Shown here piece by piece: positions 15,424 to 25,452 of a DNA stretch of 64,000 bases (position 1 is its first letter; every line of letters begins with the position of its first letter). The translations under genes and the position numbers were made by a program. This stretch comes from Agrobacterium fabrum str. C58 (GTDB lineage Bacteria; Pseudomonadota; Alphaproteobacteria; Rhizobiales; Rhizobiaceae). The DNA lies in assembly GCF_000092025.1 (NCBI RefSeq), contig NC_003062.2:1858001-1922000 (forward strand), in the 5' to 3' direction. The notes below the pieces were generated by a model that made no database searches, was not told where the DNA came from, and saw only the letters and a list, made by a program, of their open reading frames with translations.

Positions 15424-16212
15424 TTACCAGCAGCAGAACCCGCCATCCACCAAGAGATCCACACCCGTCACAAAACTCGCGGCGTCGGACAGCAGGAAGA
15501 TCGCCGGTCCCACCATTTCATCGACGCCTGCCATGCGCTGCATCGGCGTCTGCTCTTCGAACAGCTTGGTCTGGTGCACCATTTCAGGCCGCGTGTTCAT
15601 CGGTGTCGCCGTGTAGCCCGGCGAGATGGTGTTGACGCGGATGCCGCGACCCACCCATTCCATCGCCATGGATTTCGACATGTGGATGACACCCGCCTTC
15701 GAGGCGTTGTAATGGCACTGCATCAGGCCTCGATTGACGATGACGCCGGACATCGACGCGATGTTGACGATGGCACCTCGGCCATTTTTCAGCATGGCGT
15801 TGGCTTCGGCCTGGCAGGACAGGAACACGCCCTTCAGGTTGATGTCCATCATCGTCTGGAACTGGCTTTCTTCCATCTCCTCGGCCGGATTGGCATTGGC
15901 GATGCCGGCCGCATTGACGGCGAGCGAAAGTGCGCCGAGTTCGGCTTGCGTGCGGGCAACCGCATCCGTCAGCGCCTGCTTGCTGGTAACGTCGGCGGCG
16001 ATCTGGATCGACTTGCGGCCGGCCCTGGCGATGAAATCGGCCGTCTGCGCCAGACCGTCATCGGTGCGGCGGTCGAGCAGCGCGACATTGGCGCCGGACT
16101 GGGCAAGCCCCATGGCGATCCGCTGGCCGATGCCGGATCCAGCACCGGTGACGAGCGCCACCTGACCGGAAAGATCGAACAGTTTCGGGGCGTTAAGGGT
16201 GATGGTGGACAT
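15424..16212 (-). CDS. SDR-family NAD(P)-dependent oxidoreductase in sugar/polyol locus
   Basis: 262 aa, classical SDR size. The dinucleotide motif TGAGSGIG lies at residues 23-30, followed by the structural NAAGIA (100-105), Asn125, Ser153/155 and the catalytic YxxxK pair Tyr168/Lys172. It most likely oxidises a polyol or sugar taken up by the transporter encoded just upstream. The gap to the ATPase gene is 14 bp, so it is the last gene of that operon. Asp47 in ALLDRR, at the end of beta-2, suggests NAD rather than NADP. The substrate is unknown. Confidence 0.88.
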   Translation of the reverse strand: MSTITLNAPKLFDLSGQVALVTGAGSGIGQRIAMGLAQSGANVALLDRRTDDGLAQTADFIARAGRKSIQIAADVTSKQALTDAVARTQAELGALSLAVNAAGIANANPAEEMEESQFQTMMDINLKGVFLSCQAEANAMLKNGRGAIVNIASMSGVIVNRGLMQCHYNASKAGVIHMSKSMAMEWVGRGIRVNTISPGYTATPMNTRPEMVHQTKLFEEQTPMQRMAGVDEMVGPAIFLLSDAASFVTGVDLLVDGGFCCW

Positions 16213-16226
16213 CGCTATTTCCTTCT

Positions 16227-17705
16227 TCAGATGGTTGCCAGTTCCATGACCGAGACGTCGTTTGCCTCGTCGCGGTTAAGGATGCCAGCCTGTTTTCCCT
16301 GCGCGAGCACGAGGATACGGTTCGAAACGCCCAGCACCTCTTCCAGATCGGAACTGACGACGATGACGGCCACGCCGTCCTTCGCCAGGCCAACAATGAT
16401 ATCGTAAATGCCTGCCCGCGCACCGACATCGATGCCGCGCGTCGGTTCATCCAGCACCACCACACGCGGATTGCGGGCAAGCCATTTGGCGATGACCACT
16501 TTCTGCTGGTTGCCGCCGGAGAGATCGGAGGCCGGCTGTTCGCTACGGCCCTTCACCCCGAATTTGGCGATGGCGTCCCGGGTGAAAGCGCGCTTGATAG
16601 CCGGCGTGATCCAGCCCGTGCCCACGCGGTCGAGATTGGCATAGATCAGGTTTTCACCGATCTCGTGTTCCACCACCAGCCCCTGCAATTTGCGGTCTTC
16701 CGGCACCATGACGATGCCCTTGGCGATGGCATCCGCCGGGCTTTTCAGCGAAAGCACCTCGCCATCCAGTCGTACTTCACCCGCGCTCGTCGGATCGGCA
16801 CCGGAGATGGCGCGCACCAATTCCGTTCGTCCCGCGCCGATCAGGCCGGCAATGCCGAGAATTTCACCGGCGCGGACGCCGAAGCTGATGTCGCGAAAGG
16901 CATTGGTCGCGCCCGTCAGCCCCTTGACCTCGAGTACCACCTTCTCCTGCGGTTCAGGCAGCGCCGGGAACAGGCGCTCCAGCGAGCGGCCGACCATGCT
17001 TTCGACAATGGTGCGCACCGGCGTCGCACTGTCGGCAAATTCATGCACCCGCTCGCCGTCGCGCAACACGACGATACGGTCGGTGATCTGTCTGATCTCT
17101 TCCATGCGGTGGGAGATGTAGATGATGCCCACGCCTTCGGCACGCAGCTTGCGCACCTGCTCGAACAGCGCCTGCGTTTCGGCGCCGCCAAGTGCGGCCG
17201 TCGGCTCGTCGAGGATGAGGAGTTTGGCGTCGAGCGCGAGCGCCTTGGCGATCTCAATCAGCTGCTGGTTGGCGGTGGAAAGGCCTGCCACCTTGCGCGT
17301 TGCGGGAATATGCAGGTTAAGGCGCGCCAGTTGCTGCTGGGCTCTCCGCACCATCTCGGCGCGGTCGACAATGCCGTTTTTCATGGGCCAGCGGCCGATG
17401 AAGACATTCTCAGCGATGGAAAGCTCCGGCAGAAGCTTCAGTTCCTGATGGATGAGGACGATGCCCTTGTCGATCGCCTCGCGCGGCGATGCCGGCTGAT
17501 ACGGCTGCCCAAGCCAGGTCATCTTACCCTCTGAAGGTTCGCGGGAACCGGCGATGATGCCTGACAGCGTGGACTTGCCCGCGCCATTTTCACCCAGCAA
17601 CGCTACCACTTCGCCCGGATAGACCTCGAGATCGACGGACTTCAGAACCTCGAGCGGACCATAGCGTTTGCTGATGCCACGGAGCGAAAGAACCGGCTCG
17701 CGCAT
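16227..17705 (-). CDS. Ribose-type sugar ABC transporter ATPase (two NBDs, RbsA/MglA family)
   Basis: 492 aa from the ATG at 17703-17705, with GGAGG 7 bases upstream. The first nucleotide-binding domain has GENGAGKST (38-46), the signature LSTANQQ and LLILDEPTAAL. The second has the degenerate Walker A GLIGAGRTEL usual for this family, the signature LSGGNQQKV and VVLDEPTRGID. It energises uptake of a monosaccharide or polyol with the adjacent permease and binding protein. Gene order in transcription is permease, binding protein, ATPase, SDR. Confidence 0.95.
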   Translation of the reverse strand: MREPVLSLRGISKRYGPLEVLKSVDLEVYPGEVVALLGENGAGKSTLSGIIAGSREPSEGKMTWLGQPYQPASPREAIDKGIVLIHQELKLLPELSIAENVFIGRWPMKNGIVDRAEMVRRAQQQLARLNLHIPATRKVAGLSTANQQLIEIAKALALDAKLLILDEPTAALGGAETQALFEQVRKLRAEGVGIIYISHRMEEIRQITDRIVVLRDGERVHEFADSATPVRTIVESMVGRSLERLFPALPEPQEKVVLEVKGLTGATNAFRDISFGVRAGEILGIAGLIGAGRTELVRAISGADPTSAGEVRLDGEVLSLKSPADAIAKGIVMVPEDRKLQGLVVEHEIGENLIYANLDRVGTGWITPAIKRAFTRDAIAKFGVKGRSEQPASDLSGGNQQKVVIAKWLARNPRVVVLDEPTRGIDVGARAGIYDIIVGLAKDGVAVIVVSSDLEEVLGVSNRILVLAQGKQAGILNRDEANDVSVMELATI

Positions 17706-24642: not shown

Positions 24643-24666
24643 CCAAAATCCCATAAAGGAGGAGAC

Positions 24667-25452
24667 ATGAGGCGCTTTGAAGGTCAATCCGTATTCGTGA
24701 CCGGGGGCAACAAGGGCATCGGTTACGGCATCGCCCGCCGTTTTGCCGAAGAAGGCGCGAAAGTCGCCATCGCCTCTGTCGACAAAGACACACATGACGC
24801 CGCTAAAAAACTGGCGGACGAAACCGGCACCGTCACCCATGGCGTCATCCTCGACGTTAGGGATGCGGCGGCGGTGCGTGACGCCTATGGCGCTGCGGAA
24901 GACGCGATCGGCGCGCTTTCCATCTCCGTCCAGAACGCCGGCGTCATCACTATCTCAAAGATCGAGGATCTGACGCAAGAACAGTGGGATTTGAACCTCG
25001 ACGTCAACACCAAGGGCGCGTTCCTCTGCTGCCAGGAGGCAATCCGTCGCTTCCGCGCAAGCGGCACCAAGGGCCGCCTCGTCAACACCGCCTCCGGCCA
25101 AGCGCGTCAGGGCTTCATCTACACGCCGCATTATGCTGCGTCCAAATTCGGCGTTATCGGCCTGACGCAAAGCCTCGCCAAGGAACTTGCACCTGAGGGC
25201 ATCACCGTCAACGCCATCTGCCCCGGCATCATCCACACCGAAATGTGGGATTACAACGACCGCGTCTGGGGCCAGATGCTGGGCGAATACAAGCCCGGCG
25301 AGTTGATGGCCGAATGGGTGCGCAACATCCCCATGCGTCGCGCCGGAACGCCCGCCGAAGTGGCGGCGCTGGTGGCATTTCTGGCATCAGAGGATGCGGC
25401 CTATATCACGGCCCAGACGATCAACGTCGATGGCGGGTTGATCATGTCTTGA
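24667..25452 (+). CDS. SDR-family oxidoreductase, second dehydrogenase of the sugar locus
   Basis: 261 aa. The cofactor motif is TGGNKGIG (residues 12-19), followed by QNAGVI (89-94), Asn114, Ser143 and Tyr156/Lys160 (YAASK). A very strong Shine-Dalgarno (AAGGAGGAG) precedes the ATG by 4 to 6 bases. It resembles polyol dehydrogenases of the sorbitol or xylitol type. With the SDR in the other arm it could interconvert a polyol, ketose and aldose, but the reaction is not determinable here. It is the last gene of the operon and is followed by a family B repeat. Confidence 0.88.
   Translation: MRRFEGQSVFVTGGNKGIGYGIARRFAEEGAKVAIASVDKDTHDAAKKLADETGTVTHGVILDVRDAAAVRDAYGAAEDAIGALSISVQNAGVITISKIEDLTQEQWDLNLDVNTKGAFLCCQEAIRRFRASGTKGRLVNTASGQARQGFIYTPHYAASKFGVIGLTQSLAKELAPEGITVNAICPGIIHTEMWDYNDRVWGQMLGEYKPGELMAEWVRNIPMRRAGTPAEVAALVAFLASEDAAYITAQTINVDGGLIMS

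Follow-up and report, generated by a model that had tools for sequence, protein, structure and literature searches.

Whether D-apiose can be catabolised without a dedicated isomerase is the question raised by a divergent gene cluster at 15424-25452 of the window, the 64,000-nucleotide stretch of Agrobacterium fabrum C58 DNA analysed here. Plants carry apiose, a branched sugar, in their cell walls and in flavonoid glycosides. Nine open reading frames (ORFs), each with a Pfam match, fill exactly the interval given in a preliminary description of this DNA, and ORFs and Pfam matches agree that its anatomy of nine genes in two divergent arms is correct. The minus-strand arm is ordered permease, binding protein, ATP-binding cassette (ABC) ATPase and a short-chain dehydrogenase/reductase (SDR1); the plus-strand arm runs from transketolase N and C subunits through an FGGY kinase and a SorC-type regulator to a second SDR (SDR2). 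No D-apiose isomerase is present within the locus, and the earlier claim of two SDR dehydrogenases without such an enzyme is borne out by the ORFs. The host genome, of the Rhizobiaceae, comprises 5.67 Mb in 4 contigs, and its transketolase has its closest named matches, at 97%, in records of Agrobacterium and Rhizobium rhizogenes. In our reading, the locus is probably an isomerase-less D-apiose catabolic operon pair. The kinase-transketolase half of the apiose route is well supported by sequence, while the apiitol step and the transporter ligand are predictions.

The proposed route would begin with import of D-apiose by the RbsABC-type transporter. SDR2 would reduce D-apiose to D-apiitol with NADPH, and SDR1 would oxidise D-apiitol to D-apulose with NAD+, as similarity to an E. 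coli pair and the cofactor residues suggest; together the two would stand in for D-apiose isomerase. The FGGY kinase would convert apulose to apulose 4-phosphate, from which the split transketolase would pass a two-carbon unit to glyceraldehyde 3-phosphate (GAP), giving dihydroxyacetone phosphate (DHAP) and D-xylulose 5-phosphate. AplK is the kinase that makes apulose 4-phosphate, and AptAB yields DHAP and D-xylulose 5-phosphate with GAP. The SorC-type protein would govern both arms through an AT-rich operator motif. The simplest two-SDR substitute for an aldose-ketose isomerase is an aldose reductase acting first and a polyol dehydrogenase second, here D-apiose to D-apiitol to apulose. In the fungal-type xylose reductase/xylitol dehydrogenase route, an aldose is likewise reduced to a polyol with NADPH and the polyol oxidised to a ketose with NAD+, ahead of a kinase; the likeness is one of logic only, the sugar and the protein families being different, and the locus is not a member of that system. 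The D-apulose 4-phosphate transketolase pathway with a D-apiose isomerase was reportedly described by Carter et al. in 2018 (MetaCyc PWY-8089); the window locus has predicted counterparts of its apulose kinase and split transketolase and is without the isomerase.

A link to D-apiose is provided by Escherichia. In the passages of the source that describe it, the D-apiose cluster of ST131/ST14 is without apsI, two 'putative oxidoreductases' are hypothesised as the replacement, and no reaction or cofactor is stated where these are named (PMC13001218). According to the same passages, cluster-positive strains of E. coli and E. fergusonii can use D-apiose as their only source of carbon, and K-12 does not grow on it (PMC13001218). 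The words 'Agrobacterium' and 'Rhizobium' are absent from the main text of that paper. Counterparts of the window proteins are encoded in E. coli SE15 (ECSF_RS02670-02715; SDR1 65%, SDR2 53%, the alternative form SDR3 64%, N subunit 46%, C subunit 41%, kinase 40%, regulator 42%), and both SDRs of the isomerase-less E. coli-type variant are thus represented, with predicted functions. A cluster of this type with both SDRs was also found in Klebsiella aerogenes NCTC10006, in a record broken by frameshifts. Window and ST131/ST14 clusters are alike in having an AplK-type kinase, AptA- and AptB-type subunits and a sugar-binding regulator, and in having two SDRs where apsI would be expected. They differ in gene order and in the transporter: the E. 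coli cluster has another RbsABC-type system with a DUF2291 protein, to which the window permease and ATPase are 34% and 38% identical, and the DUF2291 protein has no match among the window locus proteins compared, so that by sequence this transporter type is not the one present here.

These counterparts support the earlier proposal that dehydrogenases make a ketose which is phosphorylated by the FGGY kinase and cleaved by the split transketolase. Two other statements of the preliminary description fail on the described parts of the Escherichia work (PMC13001218): that an isomerase is indispensable to the apulose route, since strains without apsI grow on D-apiose, and that the substrate is wide open, since this sugar supports growth of E. 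coli and E. fergusonii strains in which both SDRs, the kinase and the transketolases have counterparts. That description had named characterised orthologues in the same neighbourhood with a known substrate as the finding that would speak against an undescribed pathway. Such a precedent exists in part: the strains grow on D-apiose, whereas the binding protein is not orthologous (28%) and the role of the oxidoreductases is predicted.

For the transketolase C subunit, apt-type matches score at least 357 bits in 398 genomes and the next match scores 309, and by these similarities the two subunits are classed as a split apulose-4-phosphate transketolase (AptA/AptB). The kinase is 40% identical to E. 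coli AplK and 39% to the GlpK-like protein of its own genome, so that overall identity alone does not decide. The positions Arg83, Glu84, Asp245, Gln246 and Phe270 of GlpK are ones that we take to have roles in the glycerol site. Arg83, Glu84 and Asp245 are kept in the 28 kinases from apt loci, all of which (28/28) carry Ser/Ser at positions 246 and 270, where both glycerol kinases compared (E. coli GlpK and the own-genome GlpK-like protein) have Gln/Phe. Against the NCBIfam GlpK equivalog TIGR01311 the window kinase scores 428 bits and does not reach the cut-off of 590. By identity and the Ser/Ser signature it is a predicted apulose kinase of the AplK type. Glycerol and xylulose were considered as its substrates and rejected on the missed family cut-offs and the Ser/Ser signature.

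At E <= 1e-150 the kinase was found in 29 of 199 Rhizobiaceae genomes. The divergent order is kept in the stretches of 28 kinase-positive genomes beyond the window and in four plasmid loci, the exception being L060 (genome G146), which has only the transketolases, kinase and regulator of the set, with other transporters. With this distribution and the kept divergent order, the locus is no chance assembly. SDR1 (E <= 1e-90) occurs in 28/29 kinase-positive and 14/170 other Rhizobiaceae genomes, and SDR2/SDR3-type proteins (E <= 1e-80) in 28/29 and 10/170; G146 alone among the 29 is without both. The second SDR takes two forms: SDR2, which closes the transketolase arm, and SDR3, which is encoded at another place in the locus. 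Fifteen kinase-negative genomes have an SDR match, and stretches were examined for 13 of them, with G011 and G174 left out. Four of these stretches (L230-L233) hold a diverged complete cluster, in L234 and L235 the transporter and SDR pair have different genes downstream, and the remainder have single SDRs or partial sets.

A wider comparison covered 134 loci; three (L200-L202) were dropped for want of a transketolase and kinase match, and the remaining 131 gave 120 with distinct transketolase C subunits. The locus scan took the best 80 of 557 confirmed hits and is dominated by alphaproteobacteria, so that the locus counts are not frequencies in nature. The SDR pair stands without an isomerase in 85 of the 120 distinct loci, and an isomerase-like gene without SDRs in 10, so that pair and isomerase mostly replace one another. 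One SDR alone was seen in 9/120; L184 and L185 became full pairs once further sequence was added, and L109, L123, L131 and L138 run to the contig end. The isomerase-like proteins of relatives without the SDR pair belong to PF01261 (L191, L194) or PF02952 (L134, L187), with a PF02952-like match under the cut-off in L069, and their gene position suggests that they may act as apiose isomerases. Searches of the window's own genome gave best scores of only 30-32 bits for an ApsI-type query (L194) and no match for one fucose-isomerase-type query (L187), the latter run without a positive-control genome.

Counted at identities of at least 50% and coverage of at least 90%, SDR1-type proteins occur in 105 loci including the window; SDR2/SDR3-type proteins occur in 103. 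In this family, Asp at the end of beta-2 usually marks NAD(H) use, and Lys or Arg before GIG usually marks NADP(H) use. All 93 distinct SDR1-type sequences have the TGAGSGIG motif and Asp ending beta-2. The SDR2/SDR3-type ends beta-2 with Ala, Ser or Thr, with no acidic residue, in 94/94 distinct sequences, and has Lys or Arg before GIG in 93 of them (L230-L235 stand outside these counts). By this rule the residues mark SDR1 as a predicted NAD(H) enzyme and SDR2 as a predicted NADP(H) enzyme, a split that is clean between the two types and predicts use of NAD+ and NADPH, respectively. The second-best solved structure for SDR1, galactitol dehydrogenase 2wdz, has the same Asp; the best for SDR2, the NADH-dependent ketone reductase 3ak4, has Asp where SDR2 has Ser. 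Within the window's own genome, the paralogue closest to SDR1 is 40% identical to it. Reduction of D-apiose to D-apiitol is the reaction EC 1.1.1.114 of Aerobacter aerogenes, and this D-apiose reductase is not known to have an assigned sequence. A literature search with the enzyme name and EC number returned nothing relevant, and papers mentioning 'apiitol', judged by titles and abstract openings, include none on bacterial catabolism.

Genes for PF13204 apiosidase-like proteins adjoin the transketolase/kinase set in Listeria (L069, 313 bits) and in a Chloroflexi metagenome-assembled genome (MAG; L148, 403 and 231 bits). At the thresholds used, a tblastn search of the 131 loci for such neighbours flagged only these two, and none in the stretch examined around the window locus. 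Rhizobium smilacinae (L151) has a weaker PF13204 match nearby (67 bits, cut-off 26.5). Its stretch 1638-18356 encodes an E. coli-type transporter, ribB, an ApsI-type isomerase match and the apiosidase-like protein; with an apparent second ABC transporter, it looks like a fuller apiose locus in Rhizobiaceae. The window's own genome encodes a PF13204 protein of 263 bits (L206 8839-10158, G000:C2:1988949-1989866). It was rejected as an apiose source: by eye it sits among glycosyltransferase-like ORFs, surroundings that make a link to apiose uptake improbable.

Compared with RbsB, the binding-protein pocket shows the replacements N13A, N64I, F164W and N190A and keeps D89, R90, R141, D215 and Q235. 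Across 88 distinct window-type binding proteins, position 13 is Ala and position 164 Trp in 88/88, position 64 is Ile in 85, position 190 is Ala in 87 with Ser in the remaining one, and the five kept residues are retained. The protein scores 164 bits against the NCBIfam RbsB equivalog, short of the cut-off of 337. The pocket is conserved, and apiose is its predicted ligand. Ribose was rejected as ligand on the missed RbsB cut-off and the replacement of N13, N64, F164 and N190.

Several observations weigh against this reading. The Escherichia growth result was obtained by strain and not by knockout in the passages concerned (PMC13001218). The kinase tree does not unite the 28 apt-locus kinases, and L069 and L199 fall with glycerol kinases. 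The binding protein is 28% identical to that of E. coli with a differing pocket, and the imported ligand is therefore not fixed. SDR1 relatives of 57-62% occur without apt genes in six other Rhizobiaceae genomes (L238-L243, two of the stretches coming from genomes already counted), some adjoining other sugar transporters. The SDR1 protein type is thus not confined to apiose loci, and 65% identity to E. coli alone does not fix its substrate. In L234, read by eye, SDR1 is without the Asp and SDR3 without the Lys/Arg. The recorded reduction of D-apiose to D-apiitol uses NADH (KEGG R03577; PMC1686944), whereas SDR2 looks NADPH-dependent. The SDR pair and an apiose-type isomerase occur together in 5/120 loci, and also in L232, which would be redundant if both make only apulose. 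Neither is seen within the stretches examined in 11/120, some of which are short contigs. In L149 and L199 the partner of SDR3 is a dissimilar SDR (31-36%), and L129 has SDR1 only. Finally, in genus g104 (L234, L235) the transporter and SDR pair stand without an apt-type transketolase, and together with the loci that have both pair and isomerase this suggests that the module is possibly not tied to a single route.

The imported compound could instead be D-apiitol or another branched polyol, with SDR1 alone making apulose and SDR2 acting in a side reaction or on a second substrate. The pocket, invariant at key positions, is unlike both RbsB and the 18 distinct E. coli-type binding proteins, where residues 13 and 190 are both Asn (N13 18/18, against Ala 88/88 in the window type); SDR1 resembles polyol dehydrogenases, and L082, L110 and L137 also have an isomerase and an E. 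coli-type transporter. We nevertheless regard polyol import as unlikely: an NADP-type SDR2 would be superfluous for a pure polyol route, while SDR2/SDR3 is kept in nearly all kinase-positive Rhizobiaceae (28/29), in one copy in 103 of 134 loci and in two copies in none, and the apiose-growing E. coli have the same SDR pair. A pathway for a tetritol or pentitol, having no connection with apiose and with erythrulose or xylulose as the ketose, would fit the glycerol-kinase-like kinase, the polyol-dehydrogenase-like SDR1 and the presence of SDR1 relatives in other sugar loci. Set against the apiosidase-like neighbours and the counterparts in apiose-growing E. coli, it appears very improbable; no search was made for known tetritol or pentitol sets.

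A different substrate was suggested for Rhizobium leguminosarum 3841, where RL2718-RL2725 is the same locus by place and gene order (L101, NC_008380.1); the mapping of RL numbers onto L101 is deduced from these two features. By the present gene order RL2720 would be the permease, and not the binding protein as in the part of the paper concerned (PMC3333776). There the operon is rhizosphere- and arabinogalactan-induced and is read as a possible arabinogalactan transporter, which speaks against an apiose locus (PMC3333776). The same passages report no induction by arabinose or galactose (PMC3333776), no glycosidase gene is found among the nine, the transporter is of CUT2 type, and kinase and transketolase match apiose enzymes. 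We can hence give hardly any credence to an arabinogalactan-fragment utilisation locus, as proposed for RL2718-RL2722. In the part consulted of a transposon study of root colonisation, four transketolase genes are named, RL2718 and RL2719 included, and cbbT is the only one commonly required (PMC11103875).

A broader form of the D-apiose reading is possible, if doubtful: transporter and SDR pair might be a portable module for a branched sugar or polyol, apiose or apiitol, with different exits, through apulose kinase and transketolase here and in g104 through a xylulokinase-like kinase, joined in L234 by a DRL-type oxidoisomerase. The DRL-type protein of L234 could then convert apiitol 4-phosphate directly to xylulose 5-phosphate by chemistry resembling the 2-C-methyl-D-erythritol 4-phosphate (MEP) step in reverse, and the SDR2 gene would be a candidate for encoding D-apiose reductase, EC 1.1.1.114. 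In L234 (8945-18339) and L235 the transporter, of the window type, and the SDR pair are accompanied by a different SorC-type regulator and a different FGGY kinase; in L234 the kinase is xylulokinase-like and a DRL-type (DXR-like, PF21135) oxidoreductase is also encoded. The best transketolase matches in the genomes of these two loci, G104 and G176, reach 146 bits only. L256 (7977-12644) and L258 (7977-12734) encode relatives of the PF21135 protein of L234, with identities of 76% and 71%, respectively, flanked by a glucitol-type phosphotransferase system and an acetoin-dehydrogenase-like E1alpha/E1beta/E2 set. These two loci might serve 2-C-methyl-D-erythritol catabolism, with the MEP step run backwards and 1-deoxy-D-xylulose 5-phosphate cleaved to acetyl-CoA and GAP.

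The features of the window locus and its flank are collected in Table 1. The ABC ATPase start was set at 492 amino acids, matching the relative L007, with the longest ORF beginning at 17798; among the 25 NCBIfam matches listed for it, no cut-off was reached.

Table 1. Positions in the window of the genes, riboswitch and motifs discussed
Feature	Position	Strand	Basis or remark
FMN riboswitch RF00050, 5' of ribB	14198..14348	+	117.6 bits
ribB, 3,4-dihydroxy-2-butanone-4-phosphate synthase	14469..15110	+	PF00926
SDR1, predicted NAD+-dependent polyol (apiitol 2-) dehydrogenase	15424..16212	-	65% to E. coli ECSF_RS02670; Asp at end of beta-2
Two-domain sugar ABC ATPase (RbsA-like)	16227..17705	-	PF00005, two stretches
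RbsB-type solute-binding protein	17825..18754	-	PF13407
Sugar ABC permease (RbsC-like)	18887..19867	-	PF02653
Operator-like motif AGAATAATTATTCA, before permease arm	19908..19921	+	Intergenic alignment; search pattern built from it
Operator-like motif TGTATAAATATTCA, before transketolase arm	20268..20281	+	Intergenic alignment; search pattern built from it
Transketolase N subunit (AptA-like)	20306..21115	+	46% to E. coli AptA, 45% to Listeria subunit
Transketolase C subunit (AptB-like)	21115..22071	+	41% to E. coli AptB, 45% to Listeria
FGGY kinase, predicted apulose kinase (AplK-like)	22193..23662	+	40% to E. coli AplK
Third operator-like motif, 1 mismatch	23656..23669	+	Over kinase gene end, 13 bases before regulator gene
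SorC/DeoR-type sugar-binding regulator	23683..24642	+	PF04198; 42% to E. coli apiose-cluster regulator
SDR2, predicted NADPH-dependent aldose (apiose) reductase	24667..25452	+	53% to E. coli ECSF_RS02675

When up to 40 of 53 intergenic regions were aligned, two conserved AT-rich motifs emerged. The preliminary description mentions none of the operator-like motifs, which precede both arms and the regulator gene. The resulting pattern has 4 matches over both strands of the 64 kb, with 0.03 expected, two of the three sites being those that define it. The SorC-type protein probably controls both arms through this motif. The divergent intergenic region of the window, at 438 bases, is some 200 longer than in most relatives (~200-240), and within it ~19960-20180 forms an imperfect inverted repeat with 44-nt arms that looks like an inserted palindromic element. 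The long form recurs in L007, L041, L073 and L074 and not in L133.

The locus is flanked by ribB with its flavin mononucleotide (FMN) riboswitch (14198-15110), which the preliminary description left out and which recur beside it elsewhere. A ribB orthologue (E <= 1e-75) was found in 21/29 kinase-positive and 7/170 kinase-negative Rhizobiaceae genomes, counts uncorrected for kinship, and lies at most 10 kb from the kinase in 12 of the 21 having both. Within the stretches examined, 42 of the 120 distinct loci contain ribB in either orientation, including Deinococcota MAGs and the relatives L007-L010, L055, L101, L142, L143 and L151. The riboswitch precedes ribB in the window and in 7/7 ribB-bearing loci checked, as in 14/17 stretches where ribB stands apart from the locus; ribB thus looks regulated as riboflavin biosynthesis and was set aside as a pathway enzyme. 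A second RibB domain (51%) is encoded in the genome at C1:751008. The gene tpiA is present in 14/120 loci (L008 1873-2607, L010, L054, L055 and others) and adjoins SDR1 where its position was seen; this fits DHAP as a product, which TpiA could recycle to the acceptor GAP. The annotation of a 50-kb stretch around the E. coli cluster lists neither ribB nor tpiA. A DUF1852/metE pair was rejected as a locus pattern, occurring among the 134 loci in L007 only, and outside them in K. aerogenes (L225). The split transketolases of Rhizobium anhuiense (L071) and Apilactobacillus (L070) were likewise set aside as belonging to other cluster kinds.

Much of this system is already known: it is largely accounted for by the E. 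coli cluster described in 2026, and its parts are ordinary. What is new is a distinct variant with another transporter and layout, present in 29/199 Rhizobiaceae genomes at the threshold used, and this variant yields a specific prediction for both E. coli oxidoreductases. If our reading is true, two 'putative oxidoreductases' of a pandemic E. coli lineage would gain assigned steps and cofactors, and the rhizosphere- and arabinogalactan-induced locus of R. leguminosarum would be reinterpreted. Some Rhizobiaceae and other alphaproteobacteria would then use a redox bypass, with reduction by NADPH and oxidation by NAD+, instead of an isomerase.

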